DNA of 51,763 nucleotides from a virus. The position numbers and the translations under genes are program-made. The notes beneath the pieces are model-generated. The model did not search any database. It had not been told where the DNA came from and was given only the letters and a program-made list of their open reading frames with translations. Each line of letters begins with the position of its first letter. Positions within the stretch are counted from its first letter, which is position 1. Of the stretch, positions 7,737 to 50,910 are shown piece after piece. The stretch lies in IMG/VR virus record IMGVR_UViG_3300018428_000030, positions 1 to 51,763 of that record. One strand, 5' to 3'.

Positions 7737-8345
7737 ATGAAAACTGTACTTATTGATGTATTACCATTTGAATTTAAAAAAACTTCGCTTAATGAATCAT
7801 TGAGTGATGGAAAATTATTAGTGACCGGCGTATTACAACGTGCCGATCACAAAAATCAAAATGGTAGAGTGTATCCAGAGGACATCTTGAAAAGAGAGTC
7901 TGTAAAGTATATGGATAATTTTGTAAAACAACGACGAGCTATGGGTGAATTAGATCATCCAGAAAGTAGTGTAGTTAATCTTAAAAATGTCAGTCATAAC
8001 ATTATTGATATGGACTGGGACGGAAAAGATTTAGTTGGTACAGTTGAAATTTTACCTACACCAAGTGGTAACATTTTAAAAGATCTATTAAAAGCTGGAA
8101 TTTTATTGGGAATAAGTAGTAGAGGGTTAGGAAGCGTTAAGAAAGATATGCATGAAGGAGCCGATGTTGTACAAGACGATTTCGACTTAATTGCTTTTGA
8201 TTTTGTAAGTAATCCGTCTACACAAGGAGCATTTATGTATCCAGATGGAAAAATAAATGAAGGAATTGTTCCAGTTGCAAATAGTGTGATTAATCCATAT
8301 GCTAACGTTGAAAGAATAATTCACGATATTATATCAGAATTATAA
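7737..8345 (+). CDS. Prohead maturation protease (T4 gp21-like, serine)
   Basis: A 202-residue serine protease that would cleave scaffold and capsid N-termini inside the prohead after assembly, allowing expansion. The catalytic His is in GELDHPE (H74) and the serine in GISSRGLGS (S127 or S128), both typical of the herpes-assemblin-like phage protease family; DFDLIAFDFVSNPS provides the conserved strand after it. T4 gp21 is similar in length (212). It lies two genes upstream of scaffold and capsid, in classic T4 order apart from the inserted minus-strand genes. Substrate sites of the L-x-E type occur in the capsid protein of this window (LDE near residue 59), consistent with activity on it. 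Confidence 0.95.
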   Translation: MKTVLIDVLPFEFKKTSLNESLSDGKLLVTGVLQRADHKNQNGRVYPEDILKRESVKYMDNFVKQRRAMGELDHPESSVVNLKNVSHNIIDMDWDGKDLVGTVEILPTPSGNILKDLLKAGILLGISSRGLGSVKKDMHEGADVVQDDFDLIAFDFVSNPSTQGAFMYPDGKINEGIVPVANSVINPYANVERIIHDIISEL

Positions 8346-44072: not shown

Positions 44073-44714
44073 ATGAACAATAGAGTTAAATTAAAAAAAG
44101 CTATTAAAAAACTCGTACAAGAAGTAATTCAGGAGAAGACCACTGCTGTTGATAGAACGTGGGATTCTATGATGGAAACACTTTCTAAAGAGATTAAAAA
44201 GCCTATAATGTTAGATGATGCTGGTAATTACAATATTTGTGAATGTGAACCACATCATATTAGTTTAAGACCTATTGTGCATGACGTATTTGATCTTCTT
44301 TATATAAAAGACGGTGTTCAAAGACAAAAAGTTTTATTCGTACCCTTCGAAGACGTACAGAAGTATGTAAATGAATGGTTAAAATCGAAAGATCTTAATT
44401 ATGTTGATAATTCATACGAAAGATGTGTAGACAACAGTAAAGATAAAGAAGGTGGAAGTAAAGCGAATAAACAATCCGATGATTTAACAGTTGATCCTGA
44501 GAAAGATTATGCTCCTGTTAAAAACATAAAAGCGGAGGATGAGAATCCTAAAGAAGATGATCCTACAGAACCAATGAGAGATGTAGGTGAGTTTGAAAAA
44601 CAAATTGATTATAAATCCAAAAAGCCTAGTTATGAACCACCCAAACTACCAAAAAGCTTGAATAAATTAGTTGTAAAGTATTCTAAAGTAAATGGCAAAC
44701 CGAGAAAAAGGTAG
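44073..44714 (+). CDS. Charged protein, unknown function
   Basis: A 213-residue protein. The N-terminal helix (NNRVKLKKAIKKLVQEVIQE) resembles basic amphipathic starts common in T4-like phage proteins, some of which are capsid-targeting sequences. Residues about 40-110 form a compact part with CECEPHHISLRPIVHDVFDL; the remainder (about 115-213) is disordered, rich in Lys, Asp, Glu and Pro. A virion-internal role is possible but unsupported. It ends in TAG, close to the next gene. Confidence 0.6.
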   Translation: MNNRVKLKKAIKKLVQEVIQEKTTAVDRTWDSMMETLSKEIKKPIMLDDAGNYNICECEPHHISLRPIVHDVFDLLYIKDGVQRQKVLFVPFEDVQKYVNEWLKSKDLNYVDNSYERCVDNSKDKEGGSKANKQSDDLTVDPEKDYAPVKNIKAEDENPKEDDPTEPMRDVGEFEKQIDYKSKKPSYEPPKLPKSLNKLVVKYSKVNGKPRKR

Positions 44715-45016: not shown

Positions 45017-45400
45017 ATGTATGAATACAATTGTAAGTTGTTAAAAATAGTAGATGGTGATACTATTGATGTATTAATTGATTTAGGATTTCATATATAT
45101 ATAAAAGAACGTGTTAGGTTATATGGCATAAATGCGCCTGAGTGTAGAACAAGAAATTTAGAAGAAAAAAAACGAGGTATTGCTTCAAAAAATCGCTTGA
45201 GAGAAATTATAAGATCATTTGGTAAAAACTTCATTATAAAAACAATATTTGACAAAAAAGGTAAATATGGTAGAATATTAGGTGAAGTATATGATGTAGA
45301 TAAAAAAAATTGTGCGAATAAAATACTTTTAAATGAAGGTCACGCAGTAGAATACTTTGTTACCCCCAAAAAATTAACTAAAAGAAAGGTACACAAATGA
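45017..45400 (+). CDS. Thermonuclease-like (SNase family) nuclease
   Basis: A 127-residue protein. CKLLKIVDGDTIDVLIDLGF, then ERVRLYGINAPECRTR and KYGRILGEVY follow the staphylococcal nuclease fold. The catalytic Asp of VDGDT, the Arg of RVRLYG, the Glu of APE and the Arg of YGRILGEV are all present. SNases cut DNA and RNA with Ca2+. No signal peptide is seen, so it probably acts in the cytoplasm, perhaps in host DNA degradation. The ATG of the next gene overlaps its stop (ATGA at 45397-45400). Confidence 0.9.
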   Translation: MYEYNCKLLKIVDGDTIDVLIDLGFHIYIKERVRLYGINAPECRTRNLEEKKRGIASKNRLREIIRSFGKNFIIKTIFDKKGKYGRILGEVYDVDKKNCANKILLNEGHAVEYFVTPKKLTKRKVHK

Positions 45401-45834
45401 AAAAACTAATTATTGGTGTTATTTTAACATCTTTGTTAATCACACAGCCTGTAGCAAATGCAGGTGATAAAGAATGGGCAGTTGCTGGAAAAATTCTAAC
45501 CGGGTTATTTGTTTTAGATAAAATTGTAACACCTCAACCTACAGTAGTATATACACAACAACCAGTAGTAGTGCAACAACAACCAGTAGTGGTGCAACAA
45601 CAACCAGTGGTGGTGCAACAACAACCAGTGGTGGTGCAACAACAACCAGTGGTGGTGCAACAACCTCCAGTTATAATACAACAACCTCCGGTGGTTTATC
45701 AACAAATTGTTCCATCATATTATAGTCAATTTGCTCCATCTTGTTCAGTTGGCCGAAGATCTTCTTCAATTATTTTTCATTTTGGAAGTAGAGCTTCTTA
45801 TAATAGGGAATGCACTCCAAGAAAACGACGATAA
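45397..45834 (+). CDS. Secreted protein with tandem VVVQQQP repeats
   Basis: A 145-residue protein translationally coupled to the nuclease by an ATGA overlap. It begins with a clear Sec signal peptide, MKKLIIGVILTSLLITQPVANA, with likely cleavage after ANA. The mature part contains five near-identical 7-residue units (VVVQQQP), two degenerate units (VIIQQPP, VVYQQ), and a C-terminal Ser/Arg/Tyr/Cys-rich part. A hydrophobic segment, VAGKILTGLFVLDKIV, precedes the repeats. A phage-encoded exported protein suggests an action on the host envelope (periplasm or surface); its role is unknown. Confidence 0.85.
   Translation: MKKLIIGVILTSLLITQPVANAGDKEWAVAGKILTGLFVLDKIVTPQPTVVYTQQPVVVQQQPVVVQQQPVVVQQQPVVVQQQPVVVQQPPVIIQQPPVVYQQIVPSYYSQFAPSCSVGRRSSSIIFHFGSRASYNRECTPRKRR
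45559..45663 (+). repeat. Five 21-nt tandem repeats in the secreted protein gene
   Basis: Five 21-base units, each CAACCAGT(A/G)GT(A/G)GTGCAACAA, encode VVVQQQP. The last three are identical, the first two differ by one or two third-position changes, indicating recent expansion. Two degenerate units follow to about 45705. Copy number probably varies between relatives. Confidence 0.93.
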
Positions 45835-45853: not shown

Positions 45854-45889
45854 AAAAGAATCTGTCTAAACGGACAGATTCTTTTTTTA
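45854..45889 (+). terminator. Intrinsic terminator after secreted protein gene
   Basis: A 13-bp perfect stem, AAAAGAATCTGTC (45854-45866) with GACAGATTCTTTT (45873-45885), loop TAAACG, followed by T residues. It ends the 44073-45834 operon. Confidence 0.95.
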
Positions 45890-45896
45890 TTTGCCA

Positions 45897-45924
45897 TTGA
45901 CATTTTTTTAAAATCGCATAATAT
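45897..45924 (+). promoter_or_regulatory. Candidate sigma70-type promoter before AAA+ gene
   Basis: TTGACA (45897-45902) is a perfect -35 box. The -10 is poorer: TAATAT (45919-45924) with a 16-base spacer, or CATAAT (45917-45922) with 14. It lies directly after a terminator and immediately before the ATG at 45931, so the message would have a very short leader or none. It marks an independent transcription unit for the AAA+/VWA module. Confidence 0.45.
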
Positions 45925-45930
45925 GCTTTT

Positions 45931-46911
45931 ATGGTTAAAAAGAAATCTTCCGATACGTCAAAAAATATAACTAAATCTAAGAATTTTAATATGAAAAAAT
46001 ACTTGGATGAATGTATTGATCTAAGACCATCATCTCTTATTATGGATGATATCAAATGGAAATATCTAGTACGGTCTGCTTTACGTGGAAAGAATATTCT
46101 CATGCTTGGACCTACTGGATGTGGTAAAACACTTGCTGCTCAAACAATTGCTAATGTTTTAGGAAAAGACTCTAATTTCTTTTATTTTAATTTGGGTGCT
46201 ACACAAGACGCCCGTGCTTCATTGATTGGAAATACTCATTTTGATAAAACCACAGGTACATTTTTTAAAGAATCTAGTTTTGTTAAAGCAATTCGGACAC
46301 CAAATGCAATCATTCTGTTAGATGAAATTAGTCGTTGTCATCATGATGGGGTAAACATTTTAATGACAGTATTAGATGATCTTCAAAGGTATTTACGTCT
46401 TGATGAAAAAGAAGATAGTGAAATTGTAAATGTTGCTGAAGGAGTTACATTTATTGCCACGGCTAATGTTGGGAATGAATATACTGCTACTAGAGTTATG
46501 GATCGGGCTCTTTTAAGTAGATTTCCAGTAAAAATTGAAATGGATCCTCTCAAAAAGGATAAAGAATTTTCTCTCTTAAAAGAACGTTTTAACATTACTG
46601 ATGAAGAAAAATTAGAAACACTTGAAAATATATGTGACATTGCGGAACATACACGCAGTCAAGTGAAATTAGAAGAAAGTAAGATTACAAATTTTATTCC
46701 AACTCGTACTACAGTTGAAATTGCTGAACTTATTGTAGATGGATTTTCATTGATAGAAATTGCTGAAACCACTATATATCCAAATTTCAGTGATGATGGT
46801 GGTGTTGATAGTGAACGAACATACATGAAACAGTTGATTCAAAAATATATTAAAACAACTGATGAAGAGTTGTATTCAGATCCTACAAATGAAACTAATG
46901 TTCCTTTTTGA
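45931..46911 (+). CDS. CobS/MoxR-type AAA+ ATPase
   Basis: A 326-residue AAA+ protein. Walker A GPTGCGKT (60-67), Walker B AIILLDEISR (D131, E132), sensor-1 TFIATANVG, and DRALLSRFP (arginine finger region) are all present. It resembles the CobS/MoxR branch, whose members form hexamers that act on a VWA-domain partner. In cobaltochelatase CobS works with CobT to insert cobalt; MoxR proteins activate or remodel metalloproteins. T4-like cyanophages carry a CobS-like gene. Here the VWA partner is the next gene, with overlapping stop and start regions, so a two-component system is likely. The substrate is unknown. Confidence 0.85.
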   Translation: MVKKKSSDTSKNITKSKNFNMKKYLDECIDLRPSSLIMDDIKWKYLVRSALRGKNILMLGPTGCGKTLAAQTIANVLGKDSNFFYFNLGATQDARASLIGNTHFDKTTGTFFKESSFVKAIRTPNAIILLDEISRCHHDGVNILMTVLDDLQRYLRLDEKEDSEIVNVAEGVTFIATANVGNEYTATRVMDRALLSRFPVKIEMDPLKKDKEFSLLKERFNITDEEKLETLENICDIAEHTRSQVKLEESKITNFIPTRTTVEIAELIVDGFSLIEIAETTIYPNFSDDGGVDSERTYMKQLIQKYIKTTDEELYSDPTNETNVPF

Positions 46912-46916
46912 GAAAA

Positions 46917-49043
46917 ATGAATAACTCCACTTCACATAGTGATTTTTGGTTGGAAGATCACAGTATAGATTGGGATTTTGATGATAGTATTGATACATCT
47001 CAATCTCAGTGTGATGAAACAGCTAAAATGATTCGATTGTCTGCTGCTAGAAGAGCTATATCGAATTATGTATCAATTTTAACCAATAAAAACATACCTG
47101 TGTTATTTAACAACAATAATAACAGTATGACAGATGGAAAAACTGTATATATTGGTGCTGATGCTAATGATAAAAAACAATTTGACGTTTCTGTTGGATT
47201 GGCATTACATGAAGCAAGTCATATACGTTATTCTGATTTTGAATTATTTAAACAGATTTGGCAATTAGTTCCACGTGAAATTACTAAACTGGGGAAAGCT
47301 GTTAATGTTTCCAGAGAAGAAGTAATGGATTTACTTAAAACAATTACCAACATTGTTGAAGACAGATACATTGATCATACTGTTTATTATAGTGCTCCAG
47401 GCTACAGAGGATACTATCAATCATTATATGATAAATACTTTAATGCTAAAGTTGTCGATGATGGATTGAAAAGTGAAATGTATCGAGTACCTAGTGTTGA
47501 TTCATATTTGTTTAGAATCATCAATATTACAAATCATTGTACTGATTTAACAGCATTGCCTGGGTTATTTCAAATTGCTAAGATTTTAAATTTGTCAAAT
47601 ATAGATAGATTAAAAACTCCTAAACGTCGATTTGAAGTGGCATGTGAGATAGTAAAAGTTATATTAAAAAATATAGATGAATATCTTTCTAAGGATAAAA
47701 TTGATAATTTAGAATCAGATAATGGAAATAAATCTACTGGTGAAAAAGATGATTCGAAAATGGAATCAGAGACTTTTTCAATTTTTGAAGATATTAAGAA
47801 TAATTCTGATGATATTGACGATATCTTAGGAGGAGATTCAACCAATGTGAATTCCTCAGAAGATAAAGATCCAATTTCAGATATTGGAGATGACGAAAAG
47901 TTGTCTAATAATAAAAAGACTAAACTATCAAAAGCATTTAGTAAACAAAAAGATTTTTTAGATGGTAAAGTAAAACGAAAAAAAGTTTCAAAAAGAGAAA
48001 ATGATTTATTAGATATTTTAGAAAAAAGTAAGATTGATTTAGTAGACGTTGGACAAACATATATAGCAGACCAGTATTCAATACCAAATGGTTCTGTTGA
48101 ATGTATTTTGGTTAAGAATATGACAAAAGATTTAATTATGTCTGAAGATTTTCCATTGAGTTCACGAATATACAAATATTCAAATTATCAAGTTAATGAT
48201 AGAATTAACACAAGAATGGTATCTGTTGTAAACTCTGGTATTTCGATGGGTATTAAGCTTGGAAAACGTCTTCAATTTAGAAATGAAGTTAATGTTGAAA
48301 AATTTTCAAGACGAGATACTGGCAAAATTGATAAACGATTGATTAATGAATTGGGATATGATATTGAAAATATTTTTTACAATAATACCGTAAGTAAATA
48401 TAAGAAAATGCACTTTCATATTTCTATAGATGCTAGTAGTAGTATGACAGGTGGTAAGTGGGAAAAAACAATAAAACTATCTACTGCTATTGCTAAAGCT
48501 GCTAGTATGTTGGAAAATATAAGAGTTAGTATTAGTTTAAGAGCTACATATAATAAAAGTTGTTATGTTGTGATAGCGTATGATTCTAAAAAAGATAAAT
48601 TTATTAAGATTAAAAATTTATTTCCATTTTTAAATCCAATAGCTACTACACCAGAAGGTTTGGCATTTGAGGCAATACTAAAAGTTTTACCTATAGAGTC
48701 AAGTAATTCTGAAAATTACTTTATTAATATTAGTGATGGAGAACCAAATTTTACTTTTAATGATAATAAAACTAAAAATCAATTAACATATGGAGGTATG
48801 CAAGCTGCTAAACATACAAAGATGCAGTGTAATAAAATAAGAAAAATGGGTTATAATATAATTTCTTATTTTGTTTCTGAAAGAGATGGTGATTGGAGTA
48901 ATGTACGTTGTTACGGCGGATATTCATCAAGGGAGTTATTCAAACAAATGTATGGAAATGATGCTATTTTCACTAATGTTGATAGTTTAAATCAAATTGT
49001 AAAAACATTAAATAAAAAGTTAATCGAAAGTATTGACATATAA
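46917..49043 (+). CDS. CobT-like protein: zincin domain plus VWA domain
   Basis: A 708-residue protein from the ATG at 46917; a TTG three codons earlier overlaps the AAA+ gene. Near the N-terminus, LALHEASHIRYSDFELF holds an HExxH motif (H98, E99, H102), and NIVEDRYID (about 146-153) offers an acidic third ligand, as in metallopeptidase-like domains of VWA proteins. A long acidic linker (about 265-335, Asp/Glu/Ser-rich) follows. The C-terminal VWA domain has the MIDAS motif FHISIDASSSMTGG, with a Thr (ATTPEG) and Asp (NISDGEP) completing it. Together with the AAA+ gene this resembles MoxR-VWA/CobS-CobT pairs. Confidence 0.85.
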   Translation: MNNSTSHSDFWLEDHSIDWDFDDSIDTSQSQCDETAKMIRLSAARRAISNYVSILTNKNIPVLFNNNNNSMTDGKTVYIGADANDKKQFDVSVGLALHEASHIRYSDFELFKQIWQLVPREITKLGKAVNVSREEVMDLLKTITNIVEDRYIDHTVYYSAPGYRGYYQSLYDKYFNAKVVDDGLKSEMYRVPSVDSYLFRIINITNHCTDLTALPGLFQIAKILNLSNIDRLKTPKRRFEVACEIVKVILKNIDEYLSKDKIDNLESDNGNKSTGEKDDSKMESETFSIFEDIKNNSDDIDDILGGDSTNVNSSEDKDPISDIGDDEKLSNNKKTKLSKAFSKQKDFLDGKVKRKKVSKRENDLLDILEKSKIDLVDVGQTYIADQYSIPNGSVECILVKNMTKDLIMSEDFPLSSRIYKYSNYQVNDRINTRMVSVVNSGISMGIKLGKRLQFRNEVNVEKFSRRDTGKIDKRLINELGYDIENIFYNNTVSKYKKMHFHISIDASSSMTGGKWEKTIKLSTAIAKAASMLENIRVSISLRATYNKSCYVVIAYDSKKDKFIKIKNLFPFLNPIATTPEGLAFEAILKVLPIESSNSENYFINISDGEPNFTFNDNKTKNQLTYGGMQAAKHTKMQCNKIRKMGYNIISYFVSERDGDWSNVRCYGGYSSRELFKQMYGNDAIFTNVDSLNQIVKTLNKKLIESIDI

Positions 49044-49061
49044 TATATTTTATGTTATATT
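49033..49061 (+). promoter_or_regulatory. Strong sigma70-type promoter before 49091 gene
   Basis: TTGACA (49033-49038), a 17-base spacer, and TATATT (49056-49061) preceded by TGT (extended -10). Its -35 overlaps the end of the VWA gene. A leader of about 20 bases with AAAGAAAGG follows before the ATG at 49091. It is the best host-type promoter in the window. Confidence 0.65.
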
Positions 49062-49090
49062 TTTTAAAAGTGTATTAAAGAAAGGTAAAT

Positions 49091-49456
49091 ATGAATATAA
49101 AAAAAACTGATAGAAAAAATAAAACTAATTTAACTGTTTCTTGGCCTGATAAAATTTTTACCATTGAAGAGTTAAATAATCATAATAAAGAGTTTATTAA
49201 TATCACTCTTAGAGTTAGATTGAAAAATGCTATTTCTAATAATGAAGTATCGGAAGTAGGATATTTGCACAATGGTAAGGGTCGTCCACGACTGGTACTT
49301 GCTTATGGAAATATTACTCAAGAACACATTGCTCAGGCTAAAGATCGAGGTGTAATTCTAAAAAGTGATCTTAGTATTAATGTTATGTCTTCTTCTACAT
49401 TAACTGAAAAAGTAACTACTGTGTTCAATGAAGTTAATCATGTGGTAACAAATTAA
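49091..49456 (+). CDS. Small basic protein downstream of the VWA gene
   Basis: A 121-residue protein with a good ribosome site (GAAAGG). Its N-terminus is basic (NIKKTDRKNKTNLTVSWPDK) and it contains HNGKGRPRLVLAYGN, where GRPR resembles an AT-hook core. The rest is Ile/Thr/Val-rich. A small DNA-binding or adaptor protein is possible. It has its own strong promoter and a terminator, so it may be expressed early and at high level, independent of the AAA+/VWA pair. Confidence 0.7.
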   Translation: MNIKKTDRKNKTNLTVSWPDKIFTIEELNNHNKEFINITLRVRLKNAISNNEVSEVGYLHNGKGRPRLVLAYGNITQEHIAQAKDRGVILKSDLSINVMSSSTLTEKVTTVFNEVNHVVTN

Positions 49457-49458
49457 TA

Positions 49459-49698
49459 TCATATATTATGAGACCAAAGTGGACTTAATTTCAAAGGTCC
49501 ACTTTTTTCTTTTGCATAAAAATAAATGGATGCTTTCGGCATATGTTTTTTGATATTTCTAATAATACCCTCACACATATTCCAACTCCCAGTATATAAC
49601 GGAAAATCAAAATTACTATCAAATATTGAAAAAGAAATAGTTGATGTTTCTATTACATAGAAATTTTTTTCTTTTGGGTTGATTTTTTTAAACTTCAT
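49459..49698 (-). CDS. Small minus-strand protein, unknown function
   Basis: A 79-residue protein. KFKKINPKEKNFYVIETSTI, then a central FPLYTGSWNMCEGIIRNIKK, and an end AKEKSGPLKLSPLWSHNI. No motif is recognised. On the minus strand TATTTATA (49723-49716) lies 17 bases before the ATG, which supports it as a real gene in this direction. Its 3' part contains the terminator hairpin of the preceding + gene. Confidence 0.6.
   Translation of the reverse strand: MKFKKINPKEKNFYVIETSTISFSIFDSNFDFPLYTGSWNMCEGIIRNIKKHMPKASIYFYAKEKSGPLKLSPLWSHNI
49476..49508 (+). terminator. Intrinsic terminator after 49091 gene
   Basis: AAAGTGGAC (49476-49484) pairs with GTCCACTTT (49497-49505), loop of 12, followed by T residues. 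It lies inside the 3' end of the convergent minus-strand gene, so the hairpin is also coding there. Confidence 0.85.
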
Positions 49699-49704
49699 GG
49701 TAAA

Positions 49705-50910
49705 ATGCTATTAAATATAAATATGGACACGTTACAAGAATTTTTTGGAATTGAGAAACAAGATTTCGATTATGATGAAAATAAAAGAAAACTAGTAGAC
49801 AACCTAGATTTCTTGAAATCAATGTCTGTAGAAGAACAAACTTTCTATAAAAAGTGGGTGGAAGTTCAATCTTTAGATAAATATATGGATAAATCTATTA
49901 TTGCTAAAAATAAAATATGGACTCCTACCGATTTAAATGATGAAAAACGAACCATAAAAGAAATAGAAGAAATTAATCCAACGGTTGTCTATGTTAAAAA
50001 TAAAACTAATTTAGATACTGATTGGATTATGATGAGAACATTTGTTCACACAATGGCGTATGATCAAACTCCAGGTAGATTTATTAAATTATTAGTTACA
50101 GATGGTAATAAAAGTAACCCACGTTATTTAGGAGCAATTAGTATGTCTAGTGATGTAATTACTATTACTGATAGGGATAAATACATAGGATGGACATCAG
50201 ATCAAAAATTAAAAGATAAAAAACTTAATAACAGCGCTATTGGAAGTTGTATTATGGCTACACAACCATTTGGATACAATTTTCTTGGTGGAAAATTAGT
50301 AGCTGCTTTAGTTACTGGAGAAACTGTAAGAAACCTTTGGAAAGAATTATATGGTCAAGTATTAGCTGGAATCACTACAACTAGTCTATATGGAAGTTAT
50401 AGTATGTATAACAGTTTAAAGTGGTGGCATAAATGTGGTACCAGTGCTGGTAAAATGTCTATTAAACCAGACGACGATGTATATAAGATATGGCATGACT
50501 GGATCAAAGAAAATAAAAGTGAGAAATATACTCAAGTATTAACTCAAAAAGAAGGTGTATCTGGTCCAGTAACTGGAGCTAAAAATCGAGTATTAAATAT
50601 GATTTTTTCACAGTGTGGTATAAAATCTTCAAATTATGTACATGGATTTGAACGGGGTACTTATTATGCTTGTCCATACACCAATAGCAAAGAATTTTTA
50701 AGAAATGAAATAGATGAAGAAAAATTAGTGTTAAATCCAAAATACACTGAAAATTCTATTGTTAGTTGGTGGAAAAATAAAGCTATTTCTAGATATAAAA
50801 ATCTCAAAGATTCTAATAGATTAAAGCCCAATATTCTTTATTATAATAAAATGATGGGTATTTCATATGAAGAATGCAAAAATATGTATTTTGGTGAGGT
50901 AGGACGTTGA
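49705..50910 (+). CDS. DruA/DUF4338-like protein
   Basis: A 401-residue protein; ATG at 49705, or at 49723 giving 395 residues. After an N-terminal helical part (about 1-130), NPRYLGAISMSSDVITITDR, KYIGWTSDQK, AIGSCIMATQPFGYNFLGGK and GITTTSLYGSYSMYN follow the pattern of DUF4338 proteins, the family that includes the Druantia defence protein DruA. Phage relatives of this family exist without a Druantia operon. Its activity is unknown; a link to defence or counter-defence is inference. It is transcribed after a minus-strand gene and just before the repeat protein. Confidence 0.55.
   Translation: MLLNINMDTLQEFFGIEKQDFDYDENKRKLVDNLDFLKSMSVEEQTFYKKWVEVQSLDKYMDKSIIAKNKIWTPTDLNDEKRTIKEIEEINPTVVYVKNKTNLDTDWIMMRTFVHTMAYDQTPGRFIKLLVTDGNKSNPRYLGAISMSSDVITITDRDKYIGWTSDQKLKDKKLNNSAIGSCIMATQPFGYNFLGGKLVAALVTGETVRNLWKELYGQVLAGITTTSLYGSYSMYNSLKWWHKCGTSAGKMSIKPDDDVYKIWHDWIKENKSEKYTQVLTQKEGVSGPVTGAKNRVLNMIFSQCGIKSSNYVHGFERGTYYACPYTNSKEFLRNEIDEEKLVLNPKYTENSIVSWWKNKAISRYKNLKDSNRLKPNILYYNKMMGISYEECKNMYFGEVGR

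Follow-up and report, generated by a model that had tools for sequence, protein, structure and literature searches.

A MoxR-type ATPase and a zincin-like VWA adaptor encoded side by side in a T4-like phage

The three-gene unit

We analyzed a unit of three plus-strand genes in the IMG/VR virus record IMGVR_UViG_3300018428_000030, encoding a MoxR-type AAA+ ATPase, a protein that joins an HExxH zincin-like domain to a von Willebrand factor A (VWA) domain, and a small protein, p3. The window is the whole record of 51,763 bases, in whose coordinates all positions are given. It comes from a T4-like phage, with genes for a terminase, portal, gp21-type head protease, major head protein, UvsX-like recombinase, DnaB-like helicase, and class Ia NrdA/NrdB. 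All three genes of the unit are real open reading frames (ORFs), and they are bracketed by two intrinsic terminators. A model's reading of the DNA made without database searches (the sequence-only reading) had described a phage MoxR/CobS-CobT-like module, and for the AAA+ and VWA genes this description is supported by linkage and invariant motifs.

The AAA+ gene (45931 to 46911) encodes a MoxR/CbbQ-NorQ-CobS-like ATPase of 326 amino acids and, as the sequence-only reading held, has intact Walker A (GPTGCGKT) and Walker B (LLDE) motifs. The protein matched AAA_5 (PF07728, 5.1e-18, above its cut-off) and phrog_249, labeled "porphyrin biosynthesis" (1.5e-24), and PADLOC returned AAA+-domain matches only. 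K66, D131-E132, and R192/R197 were invariant in 55/55 distinct homologues, with motif variation among these 55 comprising single substitutions at G65 and R188 and an L/M exchange at position 130. The features of a MoxR-type AAA+ protein—an AAA_5/MoxR-like domain, Walker A, Walker B, sensor 1, and arginine residues—are all present.

The VWA gene (46917 to 49043) encodes 708 amino acids, arranged as an HExxH zincin-like N-terminal domain, an acidic linker, a finger region, and a C-terminal VWA domain with a metal ion-dependent adhesion site (MIDAS). The AAA+ and VWA genes had been described as overlapping, which holds solely if the VWA gene starts at the alternative TTG at 46908; with the ATG at 46917 they stand 5 nt apart, and a gap (1 to 51 nt) is almost always present in relatives. 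Translational coupling through an overlap was rejected on these grounds. p3 (49091 to 49456) follows, with 121 amino acids.

The intrinsic terminator at 45854 to 45885 (14-pair stem and T-run) ends the upstream operon, and a hairpin terminator at 49476 to 49505 ends the three-gene unit. Terminator-like hairpins were found 5′ of the unit in 46 and 3′ of it in 50 of 51 distinct loci, the window included, by a permissive scan run without a shuffle control. A terminator and a sigma70-type promoter had been proposed to separate the module from the preceding genes; the terminator stands, while the sigma70-like promoter 5′ of the AAA+ gene (45897 to 45924; TTGACA-16-TAATAT, 10/12) is weak. Relatives mostly have TTGACT-16-TAAGAT (9/12), a score that ~44% of shuffles reach as their best. 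TTGAC[A/T] nevertheless recurs at a similar position before the AAA+ gene in relatives, though scores are not above those of shuffles. A T4-type late promoter motif, TATAAATA, was dropped as evidence of timing because too many chance matches are expected in AT-rich sequence.

Conservation and linkage of the ATPase and its adaptor

A direct search of IMG/VR returned 30 relatives of the VWA protein, and the only named phage records with a match were the uncultured 484-kb phage LR756508 and Microcystis phage Mel-JY01. Three metagenome-assembled genome contigs also matched, possibly as binned virus. The HEASH motif (residues 98 to 102; 47208 to 47222), a predicted zinc site, is followed by N145-xx-E148-D149-R150-xx-D153 (47349 to 47375), a motif predicted to supply the third metal ligand; its NxxEDR part is invariant, and an ED motif of this kind follows HExxH in other phage families. 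The MIDAS is complete (D505-S507-S509, T578, and D607), and with the VWA fold described below the protein has both hallmarks of a MIDAS-bearing VWA domain. Both motifs had been reported by the sequence-only reading, which set their loss in relatives as grounds for refutation. None was lost: H98, E99, H102, N145, E148, D149, R150, D505, S507, S509, T578, and D607 were invariant in 63/63 distinct full-length homologues, as were the finger residues R465, G469, and R474. Mean column identity across the family was 52%, and many homologues were only 35 to 40% identical overall. In one relative (L063) the VWA gene appeared as two overlapping ORFs in one contig, reflecting a frameshift or an assembly error.

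An AlphaFold2 (AF2) model of the full-length VWA protein had a mean predicted local distance difference test (pLDDT) score of 71.8. Its best fold match was the NorD VWA domain (VIA Z 20.1; root mean square deviation, 7.2; 263 aligned residues), followed by the MIDAS domains of Rea1/Midasin (Z of about 17). In the viral library BFVD, the model matched phage CobT-like/VWFA proteins over most of their length, with low TM-scores. E148 lies on a helix that comes after the HExxH helix in this model, and conserved residues 441 to 480 occupy the expected place of a NorD-type finger. By sequence alone, Pfam VWA_2 gave an E value of only 0.17. A search of the VWA profile against sequences of solved structures gave chance hits only, and PADLOC gave no match for the VWA protein or p3. 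Since individual CobT, NorD, and S-CREM1 sequences scored low probabilities in hhalign with this profile, homology to these proteins rests on shared motifs, their order, and fold.

The two genes are also consistently linked. The AAA+ gene adjoins the VWA gene in all 55 p3 loci with room for it. Among 24 distant loci it lies no more than about 0.8 kb from the VWA gene in 20, mostly in reverse order and in unrelated neighborhoods, so that both gene orders occur in distant phages; in the remaining four, all of them contig fragments, no AAA+ gene was found. A lack of co-occurrence, which would have spoken against a module, was therefore not seen.

As a kind, such a phage pair is already known. The passage by Iyer et al. 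(2021) on group 2.2 jumbo phages describes a MoxR AAA+ protein beside a vWA protein with an N-terminal metallopeptidase domain and proposes a role in virion assembly (PMC7824862). Adjacent MoxR and vWA genes, the latter with an N-terminal HExxH domain, are what we found here; the likeness to the published examples (ASV44728/ASV44729) is by description, and that passage mentions no p3-like neighbor. Viral cobST clusters, including those of cyanophages with CobS and a "peptidase," share the identical two-gene cluster and VWA/MIDAS architecture (PMC8651126). NorQ-NorD and CbbQ-CbbO likewise combine a MoxR AAA+ protein with a VWA/MIDAS adaptor that has a pore-finger region before the VWA domain. 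They differ in their targets, which are respiratory or carbon-fixation enzymes, and HExxH is missing from the NorD used for comparison.

Similar pairs occur in other phages and on plasmids. Cyanophage S-CREM1 ORF197 (L099, 2480 to 4621) is annotated as an "RNA binding protein," yet it contains HEVGH, NVLEDVRVE, and a DxSxS VWA motif and adjoins a MoxR gene. Genes resembling the one for the CobS-like protein of phage DLP_6 were found in 3816 plasmid records; in the examples examined (e.g., L111, L126, and L127) this gene sits beside a VWA gene annotated as hypothetical or CobT, and many of these records look like phage-plasmids.

Remodelling, proteolysis, or cobalt chelation

With moderate confidence, we favor the view that the pair is a MoxR-type remodelling machine and not a cobalt chelatase, in which the adaptor's N-terminal domain would most likely bind zinc and cut its target or, failing that, hold it. 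NorQ-NorD provides a solved finger-in-pore example: a finger located before the VWA core inserts into the pore of the AAA+ ring, which the C terminus also contacts, and mutating the MIDAS abolishes maturation of the target while NorQ binding is retained (PMC13036017, PMC9976466). By analogy, the AAA+ ring of the phage pair would be coupled to the adaptor by a finger in the pore, and the MIDAS of the adaptor would grip the target. The N-terminal domain, which carries an intact gluzincin-like signature (HExSH...NxxED), may bind zinc and then cut or hold the strained target. NorQD-like coupling combined with such a domain would mean that a gripped, strained target could be cut.

Cobalt chelation was weighed using five genuine CobT proteins (Cereibacter, Sinorhizobium, Sphingomonas, Rhizobium, and Pandoraea), each encoded near cobS in its own record; a Methylobacterium sequence (L123), read in a wrong frame, was left out. 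The comparison also took in ten other phage or plasmid lineages, namely, Escherichia coli and Klebsiella plasmids, S-CREM1, DLP_6, Mae-Yong1326-1, BS162P1, HCTV-2, a Methylomonas plasmid, an Acinetobacter plasmid, and Thermus TSP4. HExxH was absent from all five CobTs and from one NorD, and HExxH followed by an ED motif was present in 8/10 of the other phage or plasmid CobT-like lineages. Mel-JY01, a direct relative, keeps both motifs. Genuine CobS-CobT resembles the phage pair in its AAA+ homology, in its similar finger and VWA regions, and in an N-terminal domain that can be aligned in the region of the metal motifs, and it differs in having no HExxH and in having CobN as a partner. At the metal motifs, CobT has a RYHDDA-like stretch in place of HExxH and ExARxE in place of EDxRxE, in a distant alignment that is only suggestive.

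Viral cobST has been proposed as a helper of host CobN, with cobT said to be "mistakenly annotated as a peptidase" (PMC8651126); here, HExxH and the ED motif are intact in most phage copies examined. According to this proposal, CobS/CobT-like subunits together with host CobN would raise the cobalamin supply for phage DNA synthesis. It agrees with the AAA+ profile, which fits genuine CobS (hhalign E value of 1.3e-8) about as well as a NorQ, and with the CobT-like finger region of the VWA protein. It is nonetheless very improbable for the present pair, in which HExxH is kept. PF11775, the CobT-type large-subunit family, had no match in the window, and a B12-dependent NrdJ-type reductase scored above the cut-off in only one of 16 large records (LR756508). 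Chelation by the phage pair is thus poorly supported, judging from sequence comparisons, because genuine CobTs have no HExxH, CobN was not found in any of the 16 records, and the ribonucleotide reductase (RNR) of the window is class Ia, which is B12 independent. The earlier preference for remodelling or proteolysis over chelation agrees with the motifs kept here and absent from CobT; its proteolytic part is a deduction from those motifs.

Several observations weigh against the remodelling machine with a metal-binding N-terminal domain. A host could supply CobN, and weak matches to CobT_C (PF11775) were found in 7/24 VWA relatives (best E value, 0.0014). HExxH is missing from the Thermus TSP4 and Acinetobacter plasmid copies and is therefore not essential to the wider system. 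NorD, the best structural relative, is a cofactor-insertion chaperone without HExxH. Zincin families were not among the fold-search matches of the whole VWA protein, a result that is uninformative because the VWA domain fills the list. Together with the NorD and CobT proteins examined, the two copies that have no HExxH would fit a pure remodelling chaperone, with a noncatalytic N-terminal scaffold in which HExxH serves only structure or metal binding. We regard such a chaperone as possible though unlikely, given that H, E, H, N, E, and D are strictly invariant in the 63 homologues and are kept in 8/10 of the other lineages.

At the other extreme, the pair might be an AAA+ protease of a design not previously described, with the peptidase in a MIDAS adaptor instead of a chamber: the ring would pull the finger, the adaptor would cut the gripped target, and CobT would be a decayed relative that lost HExxH. 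This is a tentative suggestion that we think rather doubtful. A comparable degree of doubt applies to virion assembly, which concerns the choice of target within the favored mechanism: the pair would fold and trim structural proteins late in infection, in line with the proposal for group 2.2 jumbo phages and the ATV precedent in the passage cited above (PMC7824862). Weighing lightly against such a target, the window has its own gp21-type head maturation protease (7737 to 8345; phrog_207, 5.9e-52). Gene position is likewise weak evidence against it: rather than belonging to a structural cluster, the pair has RNR and replication genes as neighbors in the window, and the S-CREM1 pair is located between gp46/47 and clamp genes.

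The neighboring protein p3

p3 has no Pfam family, and its PHROG matches were marginal and without function. It had been described as small and basic: it is small, and its net charge of +5 over 121 residues makes it weakly basic, with charges of 0 to +11 among those relatives that were counted. The AF2 model has a compact winged-helix core (pLDDT of about 81 to 91 over residues 11 to 90), and most top Foldseek and VIA matches were winged helices, at modest scores (VIA Z of 6.6 or less; Foldseek E value of 0.007 or worse). The GRPR "core" previously taken for an AT-hook-like element is part of a GKGRP loop that forms the wing of the predicted winged helix; K-G-R-P is invariant and the next R is not. 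The predicted winged helix therefore replaces the AT-hook.

A sigma70-like promoter (TTGACA-17-TATATT, 49033 to 49061) precedes p3, exactly as had been claimed, with its −35 box within the final VWA codons. Scores of at least 11/12 were reached in 27/41 distinct loci versus ~1% of shuffles, and p3 is probably expressed from this host-type promoter of its own. An operator dyad bound by p3 was rejected; short hairpins occur at the predicted 5′ end of the p3 mRNA in a minority of relatives, and none was found in the window. These hairpins differ in sequence (GGTTGAAGTTCAACC, TGGTATAGTATACCA, and ATAGGAACCTTCCTAT, in relatives such as L070, L005, and L036).

All 63 relatives of p3 lie directly 3′ of the VWA gene (63/63 contigs), a strict linkage within one clade; for the distant AAA+–VWA group, a search of 12 records that included no positive control detected no p3. 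Adjacency and the common terminator-bounded unit would suit a machine of three proteins, with the winged helix of p3 bringing the ATPase and peptidase to DNA-bound targets. However, a gene upstream of the AAA+ gene (44073 to 44714, plus strand; 213 amino acids, no assigned family), which is unrelated, is linked just as strictly (55/55 relatives with room), so the linkage of p3 may reflect only conserved synteny. Allele patterns also speak against such a machine. Pairs of phages with 98 to 99% identical AAA+ and VWA proteins carry p3 proteins that are only 50% identical, and in other pairs p3 is 100% identical while VWA identity is 78%. The change of allele starts shortly after the p3 start codon, extends several hundred bases downstream, and takes in the predicted DNA-reading helix. 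With these patterns and the negative result in the distant group, the three-protein machine appears improbable.

An obligate subunit was rejected, as the linkage of p3 is no stronger than that of an unrelated neighbor and its alleles are swapped. Its earlier casting as a DNA-binding partner of the pair is likewise not established, given the equally linked upstream gene, the separate promoter, and the independent exchange of alleles. Going by the model, p3 is probably a neighboring, exchangeable winged-helix DNA-binding protein under independent control and not a demonstrated subunit.

Cassette-like swaps of p3 and its downstream region, with AAA+ and VWA upstream staying 90 to 99% identical, were seen between L061 and L084, L047 and L082, and L048 and L075. 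A minus-strand ORF (49459 to 49698) is often lost together with the swapped cassette. Beyond the unit lies a plus-strand DruA/DUF4338-like gene (49705 to 50910; PF14236, 4e-23; PADLOC DruA, 1.5e-15), found in 55/61 relatives with room and representing a lone Druantia-type component on a phage. Upstream, a plus-strand gene at 45397 to 45834 encodes a short protein that begins with a signal-like segment, contains repeated units of PVVVQQQ, and is variable or missing in relatives.

Within this clade, p3 is a candidate regulator, being a conserved winged-helix neighbor whose alleles are swapped. "CobS/CobT" is a widespread annotation of phage genes, which are usually taken to be vitamin B12 genes. 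The HExxH signature, present in most phage copies examined and in none of the genuine CobTs, makes a simple and testable case for regarding many such annotations as misleading, and the poorly understood N-terminal domain of CobT would then be a possible degenerate zincin.

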